This document shows, one piece after another, positions 4,194-64,000 of a DNA stretch of 64,000 nt. Source of the DNA: Clostridium sp. MD294 (GTDB lineage: Bacteria > Bacillota > Clostridia > Lachnospirales > Anaerotignaceae); assembly GCF_000364165.2 (NCBI RefSeq), contig NZ_CP097810.1, positions 2,730,130-2,794,129 of the forward strand. The letters run 5' to 3'. Under the pieces are notes generated by a model. The model ran no database searches and was not told where the DNA came from. It saw nothing but the letters and a program-made list of their open reading frames with translations. Position 1 is the stretch's first letter, and each line of letters begins with the position of its first letter. The position numbers were made by a program, and so were the translations under genes.

Positions 4194-4862
4194 TCAGCAA
4201 CAAGCTGTTTTTACAGATAGAACTCTTTGAAAAGGAGTATTTAATATTTTTATAAAAAATTTGACAACCATTCCTGTAAATATTGCTGTAATAATTGTGC
4301 CTTCTCTTGTGCCAATTATCGCACCATTGAAAAACAGCATAGACAATATAAGAGACAATATCACATTACATACATCAAAACCAATTTTAATATTGCCAAA
4401 ATTTTTACCGCTTTTGTCTGAAATTGCTTTTACAAATGCCTCTCCAGAATTCATAATGACATTTGCTATTACTGATAATGATACACCAAAACCAAGTATG
4501 ATAACACCAGTCAATACAAATAGTATTTGAACCACATAGCTGTTTACAGTAATAGAAGATACACACCATATACCAAAATCTGTAAAATATCCAAATAAAA
4601 ATGAAAGTGGTATTTGCAGAAGTTGTATGATTTTAAAATCTTTTCTCAATATAATCATTTGCCCAATTATCAATATACAATTCCATAATATCAGCCACAT
4701 ACCTAATGAAATATTAATAAATTTTATGCTGAAAACATTTGCAACAGATGAAATAGGAGATACCCCTAATGCTCCATGTTTTGTAACAGCAACGCCGAAT
4801 GCTGAAAAAAATAAACTAATGATAAATAAAATATATCGTTTTATTGTTTCTTTTTTGTTCAT
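4194..4862 (-). CDS. YczE/YyaS/YitT-family integral membrane protein
   Basis: A 222-residue protein with about five or six hydrophobic segments and the family-typical start FGVAVTKHGALGVSPISS, followed by LGMWLILWN. Members of this family (YczE/YyaS group) are membrane proteins without a firmly established biochemical role. Its start codon overlaps the stop of the upstream marR gene by four bases, so the two are translationally coupled and the membrane protein is probably the target of that regulator. It may be an exporter or permease, but the sequence alone does not show a substrate. Confidence 0.8.
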   Translation of the reverse strand: MNKKETIKRYILFIISLFFSAFGVAVTKHGALGVSPISSVANVFSIKFINISLGMWLILWNCILIIGQMIILRKDFKIIQLLQIPLSFLFGYFTDFGIWCVSSITVNSYVVQILFVLTGVIILGFGVSLSVIANVIMNSGEAFVKAISDKSGKNFGNIKIGFDVCNVILSLILSMLFFNGAIIGTREGTIITAIFTGMVVKFFIKILNTPFQRVLSVKTACC

Positions 4863-5328: not shown

Positions 5329-5560
5329 ATTTCAACTAATATTAAAAGTCAATATTATTTTTAATATTATTGATATTAAATCATATATCAGAAAAATTTT
5401 TATTTTAAAAAAATATTTATCATTAAATTCCTTATCAAAAAAAATTAAATTCTATTTCATAAAATTATAAAAATTAATATAGATGTTTCTATCAAGCTAA
5501 TAAGCATATTAGAAATAATTAGAGATTGGAAAATATGTATACAATTCAGGATTACAACAA
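5329..5560. other. AT-rich intergenic stretch
   Basis: Nothing recognisable beyond the marR control region at its left edge. Very AT-rich with no convincing gene or ribosome binding site. Confidence 0.5.
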
Positions 5561-5750
5561 TTGCAAACAGTGGAAAGGGATATCGCATTCCACGCTTGTT
5601 GGGGTGTGTCTACGCTTCGCTCCGGTCGGTGCTAAACGAATGTCCACTGGACATTCAGCACCCCCAAACCCCAAATGCAAATTTTTTTAAAATTTGCAAA
5701 ACGCCTTCGGCGTGGTTTTTCCTTTTTTTAGAATATCATTTTTATTGTAG
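5561..5750 (+). repeat. Structured intergenic repeat, copy 1 of 3
   Basis: The same sequence occurs at 19287-19475 (same strand) and 57099-57263 (opposite strand). It contains four successive hairpins: a GGAAAGGGATATC-type palindrome (decayed here to ..ATATCGCATTCC), a nested stem GGTGCT..AGCACC around AATGTCC-ACT-GGACATT, GCAAATT..AATTTGC, and ACGCCTTCGGCGT followed by a T-rich run. Short reading frames inside are by-products of the repeat. It could be a MITE-like element or a small structured RNA. Confidence 0.85.
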
Positions 5751-6082
5751 TATATACACACTACACACTATATACCTCCTATTATTTATAAAATAATCTG
5801 AATCTCTGTATTTTCTTTCAGAATGTTGTAGCTAGAACATTTTTGAAGGCTATTTCTATTTTATTGACTTTAATGCTTCTATTTATGCTTATTTCTAAAA
5901 ACGTTGTATGTACAAGGTTTCTAAATGTCAATTATATACATCTATTTCAAATTATTGCTTTTTGTATTTAAAGAAGCAATTCCTTCTTGTCAACTAAAAA
6001 CACATTTTTGTTTTCAGTAAACAAAGAAAGACTCTACCATCGAAAACTGAAGTATATTCCTTTTCTATCTAAATACTCTTGT

Positions 6083-6268
6083 CTAGCCTTTTCTTTTTCT
6101 TCTTTGTGTTGGAGCTGTTTTATATTTTATATACAAATTTCGATTGATTATGCTGTCATATTTTTCCTTTAGCATTTTTACAATTTTTTCCTCATCATTA
6201 TAACATTCCAAAATATGGTATTTAATCAGCGATAGAAATAAATCCTCACTAATTTGTACTTGTTTCAT
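6083..6268 (-). pseudogene. Small element-borne protein, C-terminus frameshifted
   Basis: It starts MKQVQISEDLFLSLIKYH and matches the intact 76-residue copy at 20034-20264 as far as KYKTAP. There a base loss in the poly-purine stretch turns the conserved EKARQEYL tail into TQRRKRKG and a stop. Homologues are common in Clostridia mobile elements, often labelled complexin-like, with no demonstrated function. It lies downstream of the iterons, last in the element's minus-strand gene set. Confidence 0.6.
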
Positions 6269-52403: not shown

Positions 52404-54221
52404 ATGAGAAATCCAAAAAAAGTGTTAAACAGTCTAACAGACCACAGTAAAAACACAGAATATCAATATGAACGATTATACAGAATTCTTTTTAACAAAG
52501 AAATGTACCTTGCAGCATATCAAAAAATTTATGCTAACAAAGGAAATATGACAAAGGGTTCTGATAGAAAAACGATTGACGGAATGAGCCTAAAAAGAAT
52601 TGATATGCTAATAGAACAATTAAAAAAGGAAAGTTATCAACCTAATCCATCTCGTAGAGTTTATATCAAAAAGAAATATGGAAAAAAGTTGAGACCTTTA
52701 GGAATTCCTTCATTCGATGATAAATTGGTGCAGGAAGTAATAAAAATGATACTGGAAGCTATATATGAGGGCAGTTTTGAAAATAGTTCTCATGGTTTCC
52801 GTTCGAACAAAAGCTGTCATACAGCTTTGTTACAGATACAGACAAAATTTACAGGTGTAAAATGGTTTATGGAAGGAGACATAAAAGGCTTTTTTGACAA
52901 TATAGACCATAACATTATGATTACATTATTGAGGAAAAAAATCAAAGATGAAAGATTTTTGAGGTTAATCAGAAAATTTTTAAATGCAGGGTATCTGGAA
53001 GATTGGAAGTATCATAAAACATATAGTGGAACACCACAAGGAGGAATTATCAGTCCAATATTAGCAAATATCTATTTAGATGAGTTAGACAAATACATAA
53101 AATCATATGCTGAAAAATTTAATATCGGTAAAGAAAGAAAAAGGAACTCTGAATATCGTAAACTAGAAGTACAAAGAGGAAATTTGGTAAGAAAATTAAA
53201 AAGCTGTACAGATAAAGAGCAAAAGCAAGAGATTATCAAACAGATAAAATTATTGGAACGAAAGAGGCGTTATGTTCCTTATTCTGAAGCGATGGATAAG
53301 AACTATAAAAGGTTGCAGTATACTCGTTATGCTGATGATTTTTTAATAGGCATTATAGGCAGTAAAGTAGATTGTGAAGCGATAAAAAGGGATATTAAAA
53401 AGTTCCTTATAGAACAGTTAAAACTGGAATTGTCTGAAGAAAAAACATTGATAACTCATGCACAAAAAGCAGCAAAATTTTTAGGCTATGATATTTATAT
53501 TAGAAAATCAAATCTGCCTAAAAGAGATAAAATTGGAAGAATGGTTAGAAATTATGGCGGTCTTGTTGTATTAGCAATTCATTCCTCTACTATGCGTAAA
53601 AAACTTCTGGAATACCAAGCCATGAAGATAACGTATGTAAATGGAAAAGAAATATGGAAACCAAAAGCACGATATTTTTTAAAAGATAGTGATGACCTCG
53701 AAATTCTTGACAAATATAATGCTGAAATACGAGGATTTTACAATTATTATTCTATAACGAATAATAGTTTTATTATCAACAGCTTTCAATATATTATGGA
53801 ATATAGTATGTACAAAACTTATGCAACAAAATATCGCTCCACGAAGAAAAAAATGATAGCAAAATATCGTGTTGGGAAAGATTTTGGCATACACTACAGT
53901 GTAAAAAATGGTGATAAAAAAGTCCGATTATTTTATAATAAAGGATTTAAACGCAAAAAAGTAGCAAAAGGTATTTCTGTAGATAGTATTTCACAATATA
54001 TATTTCATACCAACAGTACAAGCCTGATGGAGAGATTGAAATCAAATCAATGTGAGATATGTGGTGCAGAAAATGTACCAATAGAAATCCATCATGTTCA
54101 TAAATTAAAAGATTTAAAAGGTAAAAAATACTGGGAAAAACTGATGATTGCAAGAAATCGCAAGACAATCGCATTGTGTCATGATTGTCATGTAAAATTG
54201 CATCATGGACTGTTAGATTGA
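52404..54221 (+). CDS. ltrA: Group II intron reverse transcriptase/maturase with HNH endonuclease
   Basis: 605 residues. RT domain motifs GTPQGGIISPILANIYLDE and the catalytic YADDFLIG (about residues 309-315), a maturase domain X, and a C-terminal HNH-type zinc domain (CEICGAENVPIEIHHVHKL..CHDCHVKLHH, about residues 550-600). It splices the intron and drives retrohoming. AAGGTGTGTGATACACT precedes the ATG. No disruption seen, so it may be active. Confidence 0.95.
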   Translation: MRNPKKVLNSLTDHSKNTEYQYERLYRILFNKEMYLAAYQKIYANKGNMTKGSDRKTIDGMSLKRIDMLIEQLKKESYQPNPSRRVYIKKKYGKKLRPLGIPSFDDKLVQEVIKMILEAIYEGSFENSSHGFRSNKSCHTALLQIQTKFTGVKWFMEGDIKGFFDNIDHNIMITLLRKKIKDERFLRLIRKFLNAGYLEDWKYHKTYSGTPQGGIISPILANIYLDELDKYIKSYAEKFNIGKERKRNSEYRKLEVQRGNLVRKLKSCTDKEQKQEIIKQIKLLERKRRYVPYSEAMDKNYKRLQYTRYADDFLIGIIGSKVDCEAIKRDIKKFLIEQLKLELSEEKTLITHAQKAAKFLGYDIYIRKSNLPKRDKIGRMVRNYGGLVVLAIHSSTMRKKLLEYQAMKITYVNGKEIWKPKARYFLKDSDDLEILDKYNAEIRGFYNYYSITNNSFIINSFQYIMEYSMYKTYATKYRSTKKKMIAKYRVGKDFGIHYSVKNGDKKVRLFYNKGFKRKKVAKGISVDSISQYIFHTNSTSLMERLKSNQCEICGAENVPIEIHHVHKLKDLKGKKYWEKLMIARNRKTIALCHDCHVKLHHGLLD

Positions 54222-54330: not shown

Positions 54331-55313
54331 AACGCATGGGTAGAATTTCCAGAAAAGGAAATGAAAATCAAAAAGTAAATATATTTCGATATGTAACAAA
54401 AGATACATTTGATTCGTACAACTGGACACTAATTGAAAACAAACAGCGTTTTATAGGACAGGTTATGACTTCTAAAAATCCTGCTCGTTCCGCAGAAGAT
54501 ATTGACAGTACCACTCTTTCGTATGCAGAAATTAAATCTCTTACAACTGGTGATAAAAGAATTAAAGAAAAAATGGATTTAGATGTACAAGTGAACAAAT
54601 TAAAAGTTTTGAAAACGAACTATACTTCACAATTATATTATTTACAAGATAAAATTACGATACATTATCCTGAAATAATAAAAAATACTGAACAAACAAT
54701 AGAACGATTAGAACAAGCTACTACAATATTGCAACAATATCCAAAACAAGAAAATGACTTTTTTATGATATTGCAAGGAAAAAATTTTACAGAAAAAAAA
54801 GAAGCTGGAGAAAAAATTCTTTCTCTTTGTAAAACAATTACAACTACAGAGCAATCACTTTCTATAGGGAATTACAAAGGTTTTGACATGAAATTAGGTT
54901 TTGAAGGAAAACATTTTGAAATTACACTAAAACAAGCAAACAATTATAAAATAGAATTAGGACAAGATGTTTTTGGAAATATCACAAGAATAAATAATGC
55001 CATAGAAAATATTCCTCATCTATTAGACAAACAAAAAGAAAAGCTAACACAATTACATTTAGAATTAGAAAAAGCAAAAGCAGAAGTAGAAAAACCTTTT
55101 TTGCAGGAAGAAGAATTAAAACAAAAAAGTAAAAGATTAGCAGAATTAAATGCAGAATTGGATATGGAACAGCCAAGAAATTCTACATCACAAAGTCAAC
55201 AAAATGCAGAAAAAGCAGAAGAAAAAAAGCCATCTATATTAACTGCACTAAACAGTTTTAAACCAAAAGAAAATACAACAGAAATCAAAAAACAAAAAGA
55301 GGTGATGTTGTAA
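54331..55313 (+). pseudogene. SNF2-like helicase/methylase, C-terminal fragment
   Basis: From the first exon codons the frame reads QRMGRISRKGNENQKVNIFRYVT, helicase motif VI of SNF2-type proteins. It continues with FDSYNWTLIENKQRFIGQVMTSKNPARS and a long coiled-coil tail, ending at 55313. The N-terminal helicase and methylase parts are not in the window. Large proteins of this kind are carried by many Clostridia conjugative elements. The next gene (mobC) starts directly at its stop. Confidence 0.8.
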
Positions 55314-55636
55314 TGCAAAAAAGAACTATAGGACTTTATACTAAAGTTTCTGAACAAGAAAAAAATATCATTCATGAAAAAATGAAATCAGCTAACACAA
55401 ACAATATGAGAGGATATTTAAGAAAAATGGCAACAGAAGGCTATATCATTTCTGTAGATATGAATAGCATACAAGAACTTGTTATATTGCTTCGTTCTAT
55501 ATCCAACAATATCAATCAGATTGCAAAAAGAACAAATGAAACAGGAAATTTTTATGCAGAAGAAATGAAAGAATTACAACAATACTACCAAAAAATATGG
55601 TGTTCTGTAGAACAAATATTGAACCAATTTTTATAA
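55313..55636 (+). CDS. mobC: MobC-family relaxosome protein (second mobilization module)
   Basis: 107 residues, KRTIGLYTKVSEQEKNIIHEKMKSANTNNMRGYLRKMATEGYIISVDMNSIQELVILLRSISNNINQIAKR, the same architecture as the GC-rich mobC at 39960 but AT-rich and diverged. AAGAGGTGATGTTGTA precedes the ATG. Together with the next gene it forms a complete relaxosome pair from a different element. Confidence 0.88.
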   Translation: MQKRTIGLYTKVSEQEKNIIHEKMKSANTNNMRGYLRKMATEGYIISVDMNSIQELVILLRSISNNINQIAKRTNETGNFYAEEMKELQQYYQKIWCSVEQILNQFL

Positions 55637-55663
55637 AAAGTTCTGTAAAAAAGAGGTGAGTAT

Positions 55664-57037
55664 ATGGCAGTTGTTCATTTTCATAACAGACATACTTCTA
55701 AAAACCAAACAGTAAAAGAGTGTATCAAATTTCATATTGATTACGCTAAAAATCCAGAAAAAACACAAAATGGATTGCTTGTCAGTGCTTATGGGTGCAG
55801 TCCAGAAACAGCAGCAGAAGAATTTTTAATCAGCAAAAAAATGTATGAAATGATAACAAAAAGAAGTCAGCTAAAAGATAAAGATAATATTAGCTATATG
55901 CTTATGCAGTCATTTAAACCAGAAGAAATTACACCACAAAAAGCACATGAAATTGGTTATCAATTTGCCTATGAATTTACAAAAGGAGAACATCAATTTG
56001 TAGTTTCTACACATACAGATAAAGAACATATTCATAATCATGTAGAATTTAATAGCACTTCATTAGATTGTACACACAAGTTTAATGCTTATAAGCGATG
56101 GGGAATATCAGCACAAAAATTGAGTGATAAAATTTGTAAGGAACATTGTCTATCTACTGTAAAAGAACCGCAACAAAAAAGCAAACAATATGCAGAATGG
56201 AAAGCAAAAAAAGAAAATAAAAGTTGGAAACAAACATTAAAAAGTACCATAGATGAAATGATTCCACAAAGCAAAAATTTTGAAGATTTTATTGAAAATA
56301 TAAGGAAACAAGGTTATGAAGTGAAACAAGGAAAACAAATTTCATTCAGAGTAGTCGGACAAAATCGCTTTACAAGAATGAAAACTTTGGGTGCAGAATA
56401 TACTGAAACTGCCATTGCAGAAAAAATAAAATTACAGCAGTCAAAAGAAAAAACAATTAAAAAAAGTATCACTTCCTTTATTGATATAGAGCAAAAAAAG
56501 AAAGATGGAAAAGGTGCAGCTTATGAACAATGGGCAAAAATATTTAATGTAAAACAAGCAGCAAATACCGTAAATTTTTTAACAGAAAATAATGTAGATT
56601 ATCAAAAATTAGAGCAACAAGTACAGAATAGCACAAAGCAATTTAATGAAATATCTAATCAATTAAAACAAAAAGAAAAGCAAATAAAAGAGGTTTTGGA
56701 GTTAAAGACGAACATCATTTATTACGCTAGAACCATTGATATTTATAAGCAATATCAGAAAACAAAAGACAAACAAAATTTCAAAAAAGAGCATAACGAG
56801 GACATCATAAAGCACGAAAAAGCAAAAGCATTTTTTGAAAAAACCAATCAAAAAAAGCTGCCAAAAGTAAAGGAATTACAGCAACAAAATCAAAATTTAT
56901 TAGCAGAAAAACAACAGCTTTATCAACAATATACAACAGCAAAAAAGGAAATGCTGGAGTATCAAACAGCAAAGCAAAACATGGATAAACTGCTCCAAAC
57001 CAAACAAAAAAGCTCAGAAAAAGACCAAGAAATATAA
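55664..57037 (+). CDS. Relaxase of the second mobilization module
   Basis: 457 residues, full length. AVVHFHNRHTSKNQTVKECIKFHIDYAKNPEKT, HTDKEHIHNHVEFNSTSLD with the metal-binding His residues, and a Gln/Lys-rich helical C-terminus (KTKQKSSEKDQEI). It is a homologue of the relaxase at 41111 but host-like in composition and intact. AAGAGGTGAGTAT precedes the ATG. It could mobilise DNA carrying its own oriT, which I did not locate. Confidence 0.9.
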   Translation: MAVVHFHNRHTSKNQTVKECIKFHIDYAKNPEKTQNGLLVSAYGCSPETAAEEFLISKKMYEMITKRSQLKDKDNISYMLMQSFKPEEITPQKAHEIGYQFAYEFTKGEHQFVVSTHTDKEHIHNHVEFNSTSLDCTHKFNAYKRWGISAQKLSDKICKEHCLSTVKEPQQKSKQYAEWKAKKENKSWKQTLKSTIDEMIPQSKNFEDFIENIRKQGYEVKQGKQISFRVVGQNRFTRMKTLGAEYTETAIAEKIKLQQSKEKTIKKSITSFIDIEQKKKDGKGAAYEQWAKIFNVKQAANTVNFLTENNVDYQKLEQQVQNSTKQFNEISNQLKQKEKQIKEVLELKTNIIYYARTIDIYKQYQKTKDKQNFKKEHNEDIIKHEKAKAFFEKTNQKKLPKVKELQQQNQNLLAEKQQLYQQYTTAKKEMLEYQTAKQNMDKLLQTKQKSSEKDQEI

Positions 57038-57098
57038 AAAATGGGAAAACAATTTGATGTTGTTTTCCCTCTTTTTTTATTTGCGTTTTTTGTTTTTA

Positions 57099-57263: not shown

Positions 57264-57498
57264 ATTTTATTTTTTATATGATTTTTATAGATTCCAATTG
57301 TTTACAAATTTGTTTATAGACTAAAAAAATATTTATAAAAATTTTTAAAAAATCTAATTTCTAAAACAATTTTATTTTTATCAATACGAAATTTAAAAAT
57401 AGATTGACGAAAAAGGAAACATGACTTATTATAGAAATATCAGTAGAAAAGACTTATTTATATTACAAATGATTTTCAAAAAAGAAAGGAGAAATCGA

Positions 57499-57873
57499 AT
57501 GAAAAAATATGATTTATCTGACTTAGAATTGGAGGTAATGGATTATATTTGGAGCCATAAAGAGGGGGTGTTATTTAAAGATTTAGTACAGCATTTTATT
57601 ACAGAGCAAGGCAAAGAATGGAAAAGACAATCTTTAAGAACTTTTTTATTAAGATTGGAAGAAAAAGGATTTCTAAGAATTGAACAAACTGCCAGAAGAA
57701 GTTACATCTATATTGCAATACAAACCAAACAACAGTATGTGCAAAAATGGACGAAAAACCTTTTAAATGAAATGTATTCAAGTTCTTTAAAAAACTTTGT
57801 CTGTGCATTAACTGGAGGAGAAAAACTAAGCAAAAAAGAGATAGAAGAATTAAAAGATATGATTGAAGAATAA
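57499..57873 (+). CDS. BlaI/MecI/CopY-family repressor
   Basis: 124 residues. KKYDLSDLELEVMDYIWSHKEGVLFKDLVQHFITEQGKEWKRQSLRTFLLRLEEKGFLRIEQTARRSYIYI is the penicillinase-repressor winged helix. ATG at 57499 follows GAAAGGAGAAATCGA. It pairs with the M56 metallopeptidase just downstream. In the bla system the peptidase triggers repressor cleavage. Upstream TTTACAAATTTGTTTA (57300-57320) is a possible operator. Confidence 0.9.
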   Translation: MKKYDLSDLELEVMDYIWSHKEGVLFKDLVQHFITEQGKEWKRQSLRTFLLRLEEKGFLRIEQTARRSYIYIAIQTKQQYVQKWTKNLLNEMYSSSLKNFVCALTGGEKLSKKEIEELKDMIEE

Positions 57874-57886
57874 AGGTGGCAGAAAA

Positions 57887-59245
57887 GTGGTACAAAGCAC
57901 AATATTTGCGATGTCTTTAACAGGAAGTATATTATTTTTATTTTGGTATTTTATTTCAAAAATAGAAGTGATTTCGCATTCTTTTAAAAGAAATCTTTTA
58001 GGAATTACTACAATTTCTTTTTTAATTCCTTTTCCAAGATTAAAAAATTATTATTTAGATTTATTAAAGTATTTATTCCATTATGAAAAGCAAGGAATAA
58101 AAGAGGTTACAGAAATAAAACATATCCTTTATATAACACCAGATGGTAGCCTATACAATTTTGATATAAAGCATTATGTAACGATACTATTTTTTTGTTC
58201 ATGGATTATGGTTATGATAGTGATGTTAATAAAAAAAAGAACACAGTATAAAAAGTTAAATTTTGTTTTACAAAATAGTATTTCTAAAAAGATGGAAGAA
58301 TATCAAAAAAATTTTATAGAACAAGAGAAAAAATATCGAAAAATTAAAAAAGATATTTCTGTTAAAAAAGTATATGGTGTAGAACTACCTATGACAATAG
58401 GATTTTTAAAGCCTACCATCTTTTTGCCTGTGGAAGAAATGACAAAAAAAGAATTAGAATTAATTATAAAGCATGAAATGGTGCATATTCAAAAAAAAGA
58501 TTTTATTTTAAAAATAATGGGAACACTTGTTGTTATGATTCATTGGTTTAATCCACTTAGTTATATTTTGCTGAAACAAATCAATACCATTTCTGAGTTA
58601 AGTTGTGATGAAACAGTTGTTTTGACATTAAAAAATGAAGAAATAAAACAATACCAGAAGTTAATATTGCAATTTTTGATAGAATTTTTAAATAATGAAG
58701 AAGAATATGAAAATACAAGTTTTTTACCTATTAGTTACTTTGGAAATAGTACAAAAAAAAGAGTAGAGGAGAGATTAAAAGCGATGAAAAAAATAAGAAA
58801 AATGACAAAATTACAAATAGTAGTAACAACTGGTGTATGGATTGTTATGATGATGGTATCTTCTGTAGGAATTTTAGCTTATCAAGAGGAACGAGTAACA
58901 CATGTAGAAAAATATGACCCTAAAAGAGAAATAACCACATATGTATATCCTGATGATGTATCACCATTAGAAGATCCTTCTTTACCGCAGTTTACATTAG
59001 TAGAGGGGTGCGACAATTATATTATGTATGAAGATGGTACAACAGAGCCTATGTATGAAAATGAAACAATAGAAAGAGCAAGCTGTTCTCATAATTATAG
59101 AAGTACCAAATATAGTAATCACCAAAAAGATGGGAATGGTGGCTGTACTGTAACAATTTATACCGCTGAAATATGCAGTAAGTGCGGAGCAGAAAGAAAT
59201 AGAGAAGAACAAAATTCAATATCCTATAAAAAGTGTCCTCATTAA
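57887..59245 (+). CDS. BlaR1-like M56 metallopeptidase with non-penicillin-binding sensor end
   Basis: 452 residues. Several membrane segments surround the zinc motif KHEMVH (about residues 195-200), with ELSCDETVV as the third-ligand region. A further membrane segment (VVTTGVWIVMMMVSSVGILAY) leads to a short outside domain ending CSHNYR..GGCTV..CSKCGAE..KKCPH, a cysteine/histidine zinc-ribbon-like module instead of a beta-lactam sensor. I take the GTG at 57887, which follows AAAGGTGGCAGAAAA. The signal sensed is unknown. Confidence 0.85.
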   Translation: MVQSTIFAMSLTGSILFLFWYFISKIEVISHSFKRNLLGITTISFLIPFPRLKNYYLDLLKYLFHYEKQGIKEVTEIKHILYITPDGSLYNFDIKHYVTILFFCSWIMVMIVMLIKKRTQYKKLNFVLQNSISKKMEEYQKNFIEQEKKYRKIKKDISVKKVYGVELPMTIGFLKPTIFLPVEEMTKKELELIIKHEMVHIQKKDFILKIMGTLVVMIHWFNPLSYILLKQINTISELSCDETVVLTLKNEEIKQYQKLILQFLIEFLNNEEEYENTSFLPISYFGNSTKKRVEERLKAMKKIRKMTKLQIVVTTGVWIVMMMVSSVGILAYQEERVTHVEKYDPKREITTYVYPDDVSPLEDPSLPQFTLVEGCDNYIMYEDGTTEPMYENETIERASCSHNYRSTKYSNHQKDGNGGCTVTIYTAEICSKCGAERNREEQNSISYKKCPH

Positions 59246-59299
59246 AAAAATATTTTGTTAAATTTTAAAAAAAGTATTGCATTTTGTCAAAAAAGTGGT

Positions 59300-59347
59300 A
59301 TGCTATGTGTAAGTTTTATATAAAGACTTATATATAGCATATTTTTT
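59300..59347 (+). terminator. Terminator after the M56 gene
   Basis: ATGCTATGTGTAAG (59300-59313) pairs with CTTATATATAGCAT (59327-59340) with two G-U pairs, then ATTTTTT. It also overlaps a possible promoter TTGCAT-16-TATGCT, so an operator role is not excluded. Confidence 0.6.
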
Positions 59348-59374
59348 ATATCATGATAAAAAGGAGAATAAATA

Positions 59375-59560
59375 GTGAAAACATTTTTGGCAGATTTTTT
59401 TTGCAGATTAAAAGAAATATACTTATTTCCTTTTACAGAAGGATTTGCAATCAATCGTTGTTTTGGCGACCCAAGACATCGTCTTACACATGAAGAAGCA
59501 GAAGAATTAAGAAAATGGATTAGGGAAACTTGGAATGACTCTGAATCAGATGACAAATAA
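59375..59560 (+). CDS. Small protein of unknown function
   Basis: 61 residues, MKTFLADFFCRLKEIYLFPFTEGFAINRCFGDPRHRLTHEEAEELRKWIRETWN.... The GTG start has AAAAGGAGAATAAATA upstream. An N-terminal amphipathic/hydrophobic helix with one Cys and a charged C-terminal helix. No family recognised. It lies between the BlaI/M56 pair and the secreted proteases. Confidence 0.55.
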   Translation: MKTFLADFFCRLKEIYLFPFTEGFAINRCFGDPRHRLTHEEAEELRKWIRETWNDSESDDK

Positions 59561-59611
59561 TATAGCATTTAACTAATATTATAAATACAAAAAAGAAAGG
59601 AGAAGATTGAA

Positions 59612-59632
59612 ATGCGTTGGAGAGGTGGATAA
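59612..59632 (+). CDS. Six-codon micro-ORF MRWRGG
   Basis: ATG-CGT-TGG-AGA-GGT-GGA-TAA preceded by AAGAAAGGAGAAGATTGAA, an excellent ribosome binding site at the right distance. Too short to call from coding statistics. It could be a leader peptide for the structure and protease gene downstream. Confidence 0.4.
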   Translation: MRWRGG

Positions 59633-59640
59633 CAAAATAA

Positions 59641-59711
59641 AAAATGCCTTATAATATAGCGTTTTGTATTGCGTGGCAGCAGTAAAATTCTATATTTTTA
59701 TAAGACATTTT
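59641..59711 (+). other. Long-range stem-loop upstream of the cysteine protease
   Basis: AAAATGCCTTATAA (59641-59654) pairs with TTATAAGACATTTT (59698-59711), 13 of 14 positions, around 43 bases. It lies between the micro-ORF and the ribosome binding site of the next gene. Confidence 0.55.
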
Positions 59712-59769
59712 CCTAAGTATAACAAATAAAAAATAAAATTTCAAATGTTAATTTTAGGAGGAATATATT

Positions 59770-60966
59770 ATGAAAAAAATGATAGCTTTAGCATTAAGCT
59801 GTGTTATAGCAACTGGTTCTGTAGTAACAGGATTTGCTCAACAATTAGAGGAAAATATTAATGTAGTATTAGAAGAAACTGAAAATGGTATAAAAGAAAA
59901 CGTAAATGAAATTAGTGAAAAAGATGCAGAATTAGTTGCAAAGCAATTTATTATATCAAGGTCAAAAGCACCAGGAGTAACAGAAACATTTCCAGAAAAT
60001 TTTACTCTTGAAAAAAATATAACAATGTATGATTTAAGTGATACTCCTTCTGCATATAAATTTGATGTTTTAGATGAAAATGGTTCATATAGTGGCTATA
60101 TTGTAATTGGAGCACAAAAATGTTACCATCCAGTTATAGAATTTAGTTGTTCTGATGGAGAAAGCATATTTGACACAGCAGCCAATAAAACAAGAAATGC
60201 TAATAAAATGTATTACGTTGGTGGAATTGACTACTTAGTAGAGAATGAAGCTGAGGAACTTGTTGACTTAGATGGACAGAACATTGGTACATATAGTGAA
60301 TTACAAGGAACATTAAAAAAAGCAAGAGATTCTGAAGATGAATTTAAAAATGAATGGAATGATGCATTAGAACGAGCTAGTAAGGTTGCTGAAATCGAAG
60401 ATCCTGCTGATATTGAAGAAGATTGGGATGATTTCGATGGACAAGAAATGTATGATTATAATACAGTAAAATATGTAACCCAAGGTCAATATCCAGATAG
60501 GGATAATTGTTCTGCGGTAGCAGCAGTTAATGCATTTGCATACTGTGATGAGATATATGGTATGAATAAATTAAAACTTAATGGCAGTTGGGATGCAACT
60601 TATAGAAGAATATTACAAACAAGTGGTGCTGCTGGTGGAAACGGAGCTCTTGCAAAAGATTTATTTAATGCAATTGAAACATTTATAGATGATGTAGGTG
60701 TAACTCGTTTGAATTGTTCCTATTCTGCAAGAGTTAATACAGACACTATAAGAAGTAATATTATTAACGATAGTCCACAAATTTTATTTTTAATGAATAA
60801 CAAGATATACAATGACCATTTTGTATTGGTCGTATCTTATGAAAAATATATGTATGATAGAAAAGATGATAAAATATACTTTGGCATTATTGGGGGAAGA
60901 ACAACATCTGTAAGATATATACCTTATGATAAAACATCAAATAGTGTGATTACTTTATCTTGCTAA
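59770..60966 (+). CDS. Secreted papain-like cysteine protease (C39/streptopain-like)
   Basis: 398 residues. A signal peptide (MIALALSCVIATGSVVTGFA), an inhibitory-propeptide-like region (SEKDAELVAKQFIISRSKAPG .. YSGYIVIGAQKCYHPVIEFS), and a catalytic domain with Cys247 in DRDNCSAVAAVNAFAYC and His350 in YNDHFVLVVSYEK. The arrangement recalls streptopain-type secreted proteases, though sequence identity is low. TTTAGGAGGAATATATT precedes the ATG. No sortase motif or anchor, so it is probably released. Confidence 0.75.
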   Translation: MKKMIALALSCVIATGSVVTGFAQQLEENINVVLEETENGIKENVNEISEKDAELVAKQFIISRSKAPGVTETFPENFTLEKNITMYDLSDTPSAYKFDVLDENGSYSGYIVIGAQKCYHPVIEFSCSDGESIFDTAANKTRNANKMYYVGGIDYLVENEAEELVDLDGQNIGTYSELQGTLKKARDSEDEFKNEWNDALERASKVAEIEDPADIEEDWDDFDGQEMYDYNTVKYVTQGQYPDRDNCSAVAAVNAFAYCDEIYGMNKLKLNGSWDATYRRILQTSGAAGGNGALAKDLFNAIETFIDDVGVTRLNCSYSARVNTDTIRSNIINDSPQILFLMNNKIYNDHFVLVVSYEKYMYDRKDDKIYFGIIGGRTTSVRYIPYDKTSNSVITLSC

Positions 60967-61035
60967 AAAATTATTGATAAGGTAAAAGTTGTTTTACTTC
61001 TGCCTTTCATTATAAAAAAGGAGAATAGATAAAAT

Positions 61036-61947
61036 ATGAAAAAAATAGGTATATTATTTACAATGTTATTTTGTTTATTATATTGTATTATAGCTTTTGC
61101 AAATGAAATAACAGAGGACAAAATCAATGAGGCAGTAAATAATGAGGACGTTATAACAATGGAAGAATTTATTAATATACCAAATTCCTCCACCATTTCT
61201 ATGATACAAGTTTATGTACATAAATATGGTATATGTCATGTAGTAGATGAAAATGAAGTGAAACAAGGATATGATATATTGATGAATATGCCTTTAGAAA
61301 AAATAGTAGATGCTCCTACTTATTTTGAAATAGATAAAAATGATGGTGCTTATCCAAGTGACGTAGAAAGGTATCATGTAACATTCTATAAAAATGGTGA
61401 AGAATTAACAAGTTTTTCAGTGACTGCAGATAAAATATTTACACATGATTGGGTGTTTGTATCTGGAAATATGGAAGATGGCAAAGAAAACGAATTTTAT
61501 AAATTTCTTCAAAATGCAGAAAAAAAACATCAAAGATATACTTTCGAATTAAATGAGAAAGATATTTATAATAATGAAGTGTTTGTGGATACTAAAAAAG
61601 TAACTTATAAATGGGGAAAACCTTATATCAATAAAAATAATCAAATGATGGTACCATTTAAAGAATTGAATACAGCATTAAATACACAAGCAACATATGA
61701 TGTGAAAACACAAATGGTTTCTGTGCGAAAAGAAAAACCTGTACCATTATATGGAGAAGTAACAGATGAAATTATATATGTTGCTGTAAGAGATTTGGCT
61801 ACATTGGGTGGATATGATATTTATTGGGATGATGAGTTAAAAATAGTATATATTACAAAAGAAGAAGGTATTAAAATATGGAATAAAGAAACGATATATC
61901 TGCCAGAAGATGAATATTATAAAAGACAGCATATGTTTAAGCAATAA
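61036..61947 (+). CDS. Secreted protein with copper-amine-oxidase-N-like stalk domain
   Basis: 303 residues. A signal peptide (GILFTMLFCLLYCIIAFA), a central region with no recognised fold, and a C-terminal stalk domain (NNQMMVPFKELNTALNTQATYDVKTQMVSVRKE ... IYVAVRDLATLGGYDIYWDDELKIVYI), a surface adhesion/wall module common in Clostridia. AAAAGGAGAATAGATAAAAT precedes the ATG. It lies 70 bases after the cysteine protease gene and could be a partner or substrate of it. Confidence 0.7.
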   Translation: MKKIGILFTMLFCLLYCIIAFANEITEDKINEAVNNEDVITMEEFINIPNSSTISMIQVYVHKYGICHVVDENEVKQGYDILMNMPLEKIVDAPTYFEIDKNDGAYPSDVERYHVTFYKNGEELTSFSVTADKIFTHDWVFVSGNMEDGKENEFYKFLQNAEKKHQRYTFELNEKDIYNNEVFVDTKKVTYKWGKPYINKNNQMMVPFKELNTALNTQATYDVKTQMVSVRKEKPVPLYGEVTDEIIYVAVRDLATLGGYDIYWDDELKIVYITKEEGIKIWNKETIYLPEDEYYKRQHMFKQ

Positions 61948-62357
61948 AGATACATTATGAATATTAATATGTTTGTAGCAAATATTAAAATAGTAATTGA
62001 ATATGACATTTCGAATTGTTTTTTATCTAATTTTATTTTTCCTTTTTTATAAAAAAATTATTGTTTATATTATTATAATATTCAAAAAAATATTTATTTT
62101 AACATAATAAAGTTATTAGTTTAGTTCTGTTAATTTAATATGAAAATAAAAATACAAAAAAAACTTTTAAAAATGCAATATTAAAAGGACAAAAAAGAAC
62201 AAAATCTTTAAAAGTAATTTTTATATTTATGTATAGAAACAGCTCCTTTCTAGAAGAAACTATTTTTTATTTCATTTTATTGTATTTTCAATAAGGGGGC
62301 TGTTGTCTATATTATTTTAATATAACAGAATCTTAATTTAAGATGGGGGGAATTTAT
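61948..62357. other. AT-rich intergenic with a leader stem
   Basis: No gene. Only the stem at 62238-62304 and the ribosome binding site of the next gene stand out. Confidence 0.5.
62238..62304 (+). other. Long stem-loop in the leader of the CHAT-like gene
   Basis: AACAGCTCCTTT (62238-62249) pairs with AAGGGGGCTGTT (62293-62304) with two G-U pairs. No strong T-tract after it, so it may be a regulatory fold or a weak terminator. Confidence 0.45.
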
Positions 62358-63692
62358 ATGAAAAAATTTATTACAATGGCTGTTTCATTAATTTTATGTT
62401 TTAATACCACAATTTCAGCTTTTGCAGCAATTCCAGAAGGATGGCGTGAAATGACTGAGGAAGAAATTGAATCAATTTCAGGTGATTTTATAGAACCAGA
62501 AAGAAACACTGAGAAAACAGCAACAGATGAAATGTATGCTGCTCTTTATGCACCAGTGCGAGGTGATATAGATACTATTCCAGACGTTGATATTGCTGAA
62601 GACTATTTAGGTGGAAATTACCTGAATTATTCTGTAGAACGTTATATAAATCCTAGATATGTAAACATTGACCGTTTATATAATTGTACCGATGTTTTAA
62701 TGTATACAGGTCATGGAAATTATGATAGAGTTGTCATTTCTCCAAGTGCAGAAAGCGATAAAACAGACGATAATTGCACTGGTGTTTATATGGGAAGTAA
62801 AAGTATTGTTGACAAAACATATAACGCAAAACTTGTAGGTATTTTAAAAAGAAATATGTCTGCCTGTAAATTTGTATTATTTGCGTGCTGTGAAGCAGCA
62901 AAAACAAACTCAAACATCACGAAAAGTGTTGTAGAAAATGGAGCAAAATCAGCAATTGGATGGAAAGTGAAAGTTGGCTCTCCTGATTTACACAAATGGG
63001 AAAGAAGATTTTTTGAAAATGTTTCTTCTAGGGGTTCAACTATTTATAATGCAACAAAGGAAGCTAATACGCTTAATGGTTTTGCATTTCGTGAGGATAT
63101 AATACAAAACGTTTTTTATGGAGATAAAGATTTAAAACTATCCAATAATAAAAGCAGAAGTACAGAAGAAACAACTAAGAATGGATTAATACAAATAGAT
63201 AAAAATTTGAATATTGATTGTAGTAATAAAAATATAACTGATTTAACAAACTATCTTGAAGAAAATGTAGAGGGATTTGACTCTAATTTATTTAAAGTAA
63301 AAGTAATTCACAATTCTATACCTGGTGAAAATTATTATACAATTTTATATGGTATGGAAATAGGTGAATTTCAGACACCATATGAGGTAATTGTTTTTGT
63401 TGAAGATGATAATATTGAATATTCTGCAACATTTGATAAGAGTGATATTGAAAATTTAATGATAACACCAATCGCTTTTGAAGAAGATACCTCGCTTGAA
63501 AGCAAAATTGAAGCAGCGAAAAAGGAAGCAAGAAAAGAAGTTCCTGATGATGTTATCGTAGAAGAACAAATAGTTAAAAAAGTTTTAAATGAAGATTTAG
63601 TGCCAATGCTTTTTGTAAAAACATCATGTATAGATGAATATGGTGGTGTATTTGTTTTATATTACGAATGCAGTTTAGATGAGAAACAATAA
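62358..63692 (+). CDS. Secreted caspase-like (CHAT/C25-type) protease
   Basis: 444 residues. A signal peptide (FITMAVSLILCFNTTISAFA) is followed by a caspase-fold domain: TDVLMYTGHGNYD with His119, CKFVLFACCEAAKTNS with the likely nucleophile Cys178, then VVENGAKSAIGWKV and FFENVSSRGSTIYNATKEA, the pattern of CHAT proteases. A C-terminal region of about 180 residues is unrecognised. ATG at 62358 follows GATGGGGGGAATTTAT. CHAT proteases are usually cytoplasmic and act in stress or defence systems; a secreted one is less usual. Confidence 0.75.
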   Translation: MKKFITMAVSLILCFNTTISAFAAIPEGWREMTEEEIESISGDFIEPERNTEKTATDEMYAALYAPVRGDIDTIPDVDIAEDYLGGNYLNYSVERYINPRYVNIDRLYNCTDVLMYTGHGNYDRVVISPSAESDKTDDNCTGVYMGSKSIVDKTYNAKLVGILKRNMSACKFVLFACCEAAKTNSNITKSVVENGAKSAIGWKVKVGSPDLHKWERRFFENVSSRGSTIYNATKEANTLNGFAFREDIIQNVFYGDKDLKLSNNKSRSTEETTKNGLIQIDKNLNIDCSNKNITDLTNYLEENVEGFDSNLFKVKVIHNSIPGENYYTILYGMEIGEFQTPYEVIVFVEDDNIEYSATFDKSDIENLMITPIAFEEDTSLESKIEAAKKEARKEVPDDVIVEEQIVKKVLNEDLVPMLFVKTSCIDEYGGVFVLYYECSLDEKQ

Positions 63693-64000
63693 AAAACTAT
63701 CATTTATTTTTTATTTAATTTTCTCAAAAAATTAAAAGAAAATGTTCATTGTGAAATAATAGAATGTTTATCATTATAAAACAAAAAAGGTACAAACAGA
63801 GTATTTCTGTTTGTGCTTTTTTTATTTATACTAAAAATTTTAGATGATAGGAACAATTTAAAAACAGAAAGTAGGAAATAAATTACAAAAAATAGAGGGA
63901 AAACATTGAAAATAATGGAATTGTAACAAAAAAATTTATCAAAAAGTATCAAATAAAAAGATTAAATTATATTTACCTTAATAAAAATAGAAGTAAAAAC
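63693..64000. other. 3' flank of the window
   Basis: Apart from the terminator at 63792-63822 I see no gene in this AT-rich stretch. Confidence 0.5.
63792..63822 (+). terminator. Terminator after the CHAT-like gene
   Basis: ACAAACAGA-GTATT-TCTGTTTGT followed by GCTTTTTTT. Confidence 0.93.

Follow-up and report, generated by a model that had tools for sequence, protein, structure and literature searches.

Features of the locus

The window, which is the whole stretch of 64,000 nucleotides analysed here (Clostridium sp. MD294, C1:2730130-2794129), comes from a genome of 2.92 Mb in one contig. Toward its end lies a locus in which genes for a BlaI repressor and a BlaR1-like M56 metallopeptidase are followed by a conserved leader and by genes for secreted proteins, here called cargo. 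We compared this locus with 58 genomes of the same family, a little-known group of gut Clostridia, with 392 genomes of the same order and, for one rule-based test, five genomes of the genus. The open reading frames (ORFs) named in the original prediction for this DNA were all found on the + strand at the positions it gave, and its identification of the BlaI, M56 and stalk proteins is backed by family scans above the cut-offs. The features are as follows.

57499..57873, + strand: BlaI/MecI-type repressor, 124 amino acids (aa); Penicillinase_R 92.6 bits, cut-off 22.6
57887..59245, + strand: BlaR1-like M56 membrane metallopeptidase, 452 aa, HEMVH zinc motif; Peptidase_M56 124.2 bits, cut-off 31
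59072..59242, + strand: C-terminal Cys/His module (CH8), probably extracellular, from alignments; [CH]xH-x9-H-...-GxC-x4-Y-x4-CxxC-...-CxH-end
59297..59343, + strand: terminator-like inverted repeat after M56
59375..59560, + strand: 61-aa ORF, its 3' half probably a BlaI 3' remnant by DNA comparison with locus L085
59546..59769, + strand: type I leader, conserved DNA before the cargo gene, 75-96% identity at about a dozen loci
59612..59632, + strand: micro-ORF, MRWRGG and stop, with Shine-Dalgarno sequence
59641..59711, + strand: long imperfect leader hairpin
59770..60966, + strand: secreted papain-like protein with signal peptide and pro-region, 398 aa, Cys247/His350 by motif
61036..61947, + strand: secreted stalk-domain partner; Cu_amine_oxidN1 36 bits, cut-off 24.2
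62358..63692, + strand: secreted CHAT/caspase-like protein, His119/Cys178, with an extra C-terminal domain
63783..63823, + strand: terminator-like hairpin closing the locus

The sensor pair and its association with secreted proteins

The HExxH motif is invariant in an alignment of five M56 homologues. The M56 protein of the window scores 91.7 bits against the blaR1_generic model (cut-off 400), and a Pfam scan of it found no penicillin-binding or beta-lactam sensor domain. The outer domain had been described as a Cys/His module in place of such a sensor, and this holds; the module is also present in other M56 proteins. CH8 is a 57-aa ectodomain with 8 ligands at the C-terminal end of M56, and five M56 proteins that are 20-28% identical to that of the window have it in common, with H, H, C, C, C, C and H invariant and one further position occupied by C or H. 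Judged by its sequence, this ectodomain is not of the beta-lactam-sensing kind.

By profile search, CH8 is present in 13 of the 58 family genomes and in 25 of the 392 order genomes. The next gene on the same strand encodes a signal peptide, as called by eye, behind 16 of 17 readable CH8 pairs within the genus and behind 10 of 12 elsewhere in the family. With an automatic rule applied to the five genus genomes, a signal-peptide gene follows M56 at 11 of 14 loci with CH8 versus 1 of 9 without it (Fisher P=0.0025); this value is only indicative, because we chose the threshold of the rule and also which non-CH8 loci to leave out as truncated at the ends or fragmentary. What follows the pair are genes for secreted effectors, not for a beta-lactamase or PBP2a, and the neighbourhoods of relatives support the grouping of BlaI/M56 with secreted proteases, first proposed from the window alone, as a recurrent and non-random association.

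A second class of M56 proteins (L164, L168, L171, L174 and L139) ends in ...YTGYYSGxLY or a similar sequence, and that of L139 also precedes a leader, of the type II described below, and a secreted protein. In another family, relaxase genes adjoin CH8 M56 genes (L119, 2511-4094; L121, 1365-3014), which suggests that the sensor pair itself is mobile.

Cargo in the window and in related loci

The genome of the window contains four BlaI/M56(CH8) loci, all with genes for secreted proteins behind the pair. In the paralogous locus L026, the papain gene, the stalk gene and the start of the CHAT gene are approximately 95% identical to the DNA of the window; papain is intact and CHAT is interrupted by a resolvase-type sequence (5557-6228). 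The BlaI/M56 pair in front is divergent from that of the window, and its M56 still ends in CH8. In L027 and L039 the pair stands before secreted-protein genes unrelated to papain or CHAT. In L029, from another species of the genus (G003), BlaI and M56(CH8) are followed directly by CHAT, with no papain; the signal-peptide start of this CHAT is in a separate short ORF, and the next stalk protein shares the CHAT C-terminal domain.

Cargo is interchangeable among these loci. Papain-like cargo, identified by motif, occurs without CHAT in L155 and L145, and other loci carry a C70 peptidase (L088), trypsin-like proteins (L127 and L086, each with a weak Pfam match, and L087, a homologue of the L086 protein), a SpoIID-domain protein (L092) or bacteriocin-like hydrophobic proteins accompanied by small membrane proteins as partners (L127 and L129); many further cargos are small secreted proteins without a family. 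L129 has three leaders in tandem within 2.2 kb (2236, 3328 and 4409, reverse strand), two of which precede near-identical bacteriocin-like proteins, each with a membrane partner of 73 aa. Stalk-type partner genes are found behind several cargos. In L134 the leader is joined to a stalk gene and papain is missing, and L085 likewise lacks papain between leader and stalk; the sequence of L134, with its orphan stalk gene, suggests an immunity-like partner, and gene loss alone would give the same arrangement. Searches of plasmids, phages and viral contigs with CH8, the leader pattern, the papain-like protein and the DNA of the locus gave no relatives.

The two enzymes of the window are named from motifs because no Pfam or NCBIfam model and no PDB sequence matches them; their genes are as originally predicted, and the protease names are motif-based. 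The papain-like protein has a 98% identical copy in its own genome and none in the 57 other family genomes. In the CHAT-like protein His119 (GHG) and Cys178 are invariant in four homologues and stand in catalytic order, and its C-terminal domain also stands alone in other secreted proteins. A secreted protein in L030 (2881-4332) consists of two such domains without a peptidase part. In another genus (G030), a CHAT homologue lies in a chemotaxis cluster (cheA, cheW, cheR ... cheB) without BlaI/M56 (L028, 7650-9840), and the same cluster holds a separate secreted protein with only the CHAT C-terminal domain. Gingipain and clostripain are secreted caspase-fold peptidases of clan CD, which the statement that CHAT proteases are known mainly inside cells had overlooked. 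The CHAT-like protein resembles them in being secreted and in having the GHG histidine followed by the cysteine; it differs from known members of clan CD in its lack of Pfam and NCBIfam matches and in its extra C-terminal domain, which stands alone in neighbouring secreted proteins.

Two conserved leaders

The type I leader is conserved at about a dozen loci where it is flanked by differing, non-homologous proteins. Sixteen copies, spread over 5 of the 58 family genomes, were detected with a covariance model. Leader copies from the same genus are on contigs named uncultured Clostridia and Candidatus Coprocola pullicola. The micro-ORF listed originally is present, as a component of this leader and not as an ORF by itself. 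Its pattern, M-x-W-[RK]-G-G-stop, is kept in 12 genus copies, where the fifth codon and the stop vary silently. The peptide is nearly constant, with residue 2 varying (R, C, G or H), and the pattern occurs 3 times in the 2.92-Mb genome, each time behind a CH8 pair. Pairing in the hairpin is kept in 90.6% of cells (11 sequences). Changes on both sides of a pair occur in 7 cells versus 2.6 in shuffles, a number reached by 1 of 500 shuffles and above all slid versions, although the structure was derived from the window sequence and the comparison with slid versions is therefore biased in its favour. Outside the genus there is a single copy (G012), in which the hairpin is retained and a gene for a secreted protein lies downstream.

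The 61-aa ORF, originally listed as an unknown, is present and probably derives from the 3' end of another BlaI gene: 30 of 36 bases of its 3' part are identical to the BlaI 3' end of L085 (score 48, shuffled maximum 32), and similarity resumes across the stop codon into the leader. The gene order M56-BlaI-leader in L039, L085, L086 and L090 points to its likely source. Read most simply from sequence, the ORF would be the scar of a sensor replacement.

A different conserved element, the type II leader, occupies the same place in other loci and genera and has a core GTGCG..AACAC with an outer stem. Its model finds 21 copies in 11 of the 58 family genomes; 13 of the 21 are just behind CH8 M56 genes, and most of the remainder stand before signal-peptide genes, where one follows an M56 whose C-terminal end is of another class. 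Co-occurrence of the type II leader and CH8 per genome gives P=8e-5 (58 genomes, uncorrected for relatedness), and no copy was seen outside the family among the 392 order genomes. One cargo family stands behind both leader types (L039 and L144, 44% identity). Neither leader has a credible match in Rfam 15 at the gathering score, and both are candidate new leader RNA families.

Several other readings of the leaders were set aside. The type I leader as a miniature inverted-repeat transposable element (MITE) was rejected, as the genome has just three copies and these share one context. A macrolide arrest motif in the micro-ORF is not claimed since residue 2 is not conserved, nor is a conserved peptide in the type II leader since candidate frames differ between loci. 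A match of the leader pattern in Chlamydiales is inside a transporter gene and was taken as chance.

Operators and promoters

Canonical BlaI-type dyads, for example CTACA..TGTAG and CTACTAT-N5-ATAGTAG, are present in several family members, and in other genera they overlap the sigma-A-like promoters of several sensor operons. Similarities in the window that might mark a shared BlaI operator are at chance level except for a common Shine-Dalgarno stretch. The repeat AGACTTATNTATA at 57450 and 59324 was considered as a shared operator and rejected as weak, as it was reached by 5 of 100 shuffles.

Mobile-element surroundings

Relaxases, resolvases and integrases are found near the loci. A relaxase (mobilisation) module, 90-91% identical between copies, lies beside both the window locus (55274-57042) and L026 (3099-4602); it lies upstream of one copy but downstream of the other, a permuted order such as a circular form might leave on integrating. 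The mobile-element region upstream of the locus in the window includes a group II intron-type reverse transcriptase with an HNH-like end (52404-54221). Just upstream of the paralogous locus is a type III set like those of clustered regularly interspaced short palindromic repeats (CRISPR), with Csm/Cmr-type proteins and Cas1 (L026, 11740-18904). L042 contains a long low-complexity stretch, (CLFVCLSV)n in the reverse frame (4257-4703), which is likely a simple repeat.

Interpretation

We consider it probable, with room for doubt, that the locus is one member of a family of sensor-controlled loci for swappable secreted effectors. The small, metal-ligand-rich Cys/His ectodomain would let the M56 protein sense an external cue; by analogy with BlaR1/BlaI, the cytosolic zinc peptidase of M56 would then be switched on and BlaI inactivated, and the loss of BlaI would derepress the sensor operon and the downstream cargo. 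A structured leader on the cargo mRNA is a probable second gate acting after initiation, with a micro-ORF that in the genus ends just before the hairpin. The cargo would be an exchangeable effector released from the cell, represented here by the papain-like and CHAT-like enzymes, and the stalk-domain partner is a candidate inhibitor or immunity protein. The likeliest purpose of the whole is to antagonise or compete with other members of the gut community at the cell surface. What the sequences show is the architecture and its recurrence, the conservation of the leaders and the exchange of cargo; signalling in the manner of BlaR1/BlaI, the working of the leader, the part played by the partner and the biological purpose are inferred. 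A more specific version is tentative and, in our estimate, falls somewhat short of even: that these are mobile, swappable effector/immunity loci, an undescribed class in Clostridia, gated by a metal-binding Cys/His BlaR1-like metalloprotease together with a micro-ORF leader read by the ribosome.

Several observations weigh against this main reading. Outside the family, CH8 pairs are mostly without secreted cargo; signal peptides were called by eye and by a simple rule, not by SignalP; and the active sites of both enzymes are motif-based, with single-sequence AlphaFold models of mean predicted local distance difference test (pLDDT) score 35 for the papain-like and 30 for the CHAT-like protein. 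The micro-ORF is broken in the G012 leader, and L027, the fourth locus of the genome, lacks the leader. Shared BlaI operators, which the original prediction proposed to look for, were sought in the window and in relatives: neither gave a demonstrable operator that the cargo region has in common with the promoter of BlaI, and in relatives most best matches are at chance level. Because no matching site was demonstrated before the cargo genes, we infer BlaI control of the cargo from the architecture of the locus.

It is unlikely that the secreted enzymes have no part in antagonism and work as exoproteases that scavenge nutrients or act at the mucosa, with BlaI/M56 inducing them in response to peptides or metals outside the cell. 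Several cargos are proteases with pro-regions and the Cys/His module could sense peptides or metal, but the bacteriocin-like proteins in tandem (L127/L129), the SpoIID-domain protein and the small secreted proteins without a family are not proteases, and paired partners with rapid cargo turnover suit conflict better than feeding. Antagonism is favoured over nutrition because the cargo is diverse, partner genes are present and relaxase modules are near.

We hold it equally doubtful that the shared leader serves chiefly as a site of recombination for cargo exchange and that the sensor pair regulates only itself. The leader is conserved while the proteins beside it differ, a BlaI 3' remnant lies at the junction, the papain gene is absent between leader and stalk in L085 and L134, and relaxase modules are near both copies; however, compensatory changes in the hairpin and synonymous variation in the micro-ORF point to a function in RNA and translation, and recombination and regulatory roles are not mutually exclusive.

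An envelope-stress response, in which M56 senses wall damage and two cysteine proteases act in sequence outside the cell, is quite improbable. Relatives of BlaR1/MecR1 respond to cell-wall-directed drugs (PMC7593790) and two copies have the papain-like gene next to the CHAT-like one, but CHAT occurs without papain in L029 and L028 and the papain-like protein without CHAT in L155 and L145. The cascade originally proposed is unsupported because protease types vary independently between loci, as in L029, the paralogue and the other cargos. That the locus is mobile-element cargo assembled by chance, with no functional coupling, is very improbable because the association recurs: relaxases, resolvases and integrases are nearby, but CH8 M56, secreted cargo and leader are found together in several genera.

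Relation to known systems

The sdpABC-sdpRI locus of Bacillus subtilis is a bacteriocin/cannibalism toxin locus with immunity and self-regulation. The loci described here resemble it in having a secreted toxin-like precursor, a small membrane partner and a dedicated repressor pair, and differ from it in the families of their regulators; no sequence relation to it was detected, with no detailed test made.

BlaR1/BlaI and MecR1/MecI, known from staphylococci and bacilli (PMC7593790), are the nearest described systems, and BlaR1 is the model for the proposed inactivation of BlaI by M56. In Bacillus licheniformis, a peptidoglycan fragment is reported to be an alternative input that triggers the response (PMC3305447). 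The loci share with these systems an adjacent repressor and M56, the HExxH motif and, in relatives, BlaI-type dyads at the sensor promoters. Unlike in BlaR1/MecR1, the 57-aa Cys/His module replaces the penicillin-binding/class D beta-lactamase-like sensor, the cargo consists of secreted effectors and not of BlaZ or PBP2a, and a conserved leader stands between sensor and cargo. The locus class is likely a new variant of BlaR1/BlaI signalling; no description of such loci turned up in the open-access literature searched, in agreement with the original view that this is not a described system.

The ribosome-sensing leaders TnaC (PMC8429421) and erm (PMC8298421) resemble the type I leader in having a very short ORF with its stop just before a hairpin, upstream of a regulated gene, and the MRWR of the window contains Arg-X-Arg, a type of motif that PMC8298421 names. 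Unlike in those leaders, Arg-X-Arg is not kept across copies and the genes behind are secreted effectors.

BlaI-M56 genes of unclear significance have been reported on small, pCD6-like plasmids of Clostridioides difficile (PMC6807378). As in the window, these plasmids have BlaI, M56 and then a secreted protein (L187, 2165-4129; L188, 4359-9179); the third gene encodes a signal peptide and a peptidoglycan-binding domain and lies 46 bases behind M56. Unlike in the window, the plasmid M56 is short and without the Cys/His module, with about 24-28% identity. Plasmid pCbo51 of Enterocloster bolteae (L189, 3241-7693) has BlaI, an M56 with a different C-terminal domain, and then signal-peptide proteins. 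BlaI-M56 with secreted genes on plasmids, without the Cys/His module, may represent a broader pattern.

If the proposed reading is true, BlaR1/BlaI-type signalling, known from antibiotic resistance, would gate secreted weapons or enzymes in gut bacteria by way of a different sensor module. The CH8 M56 genes and the two leaders would then provide a handle for cargo discovery by searching behind them, and the same reading may explain the BlaI-M56 pairs on small C. difficile plasmids.

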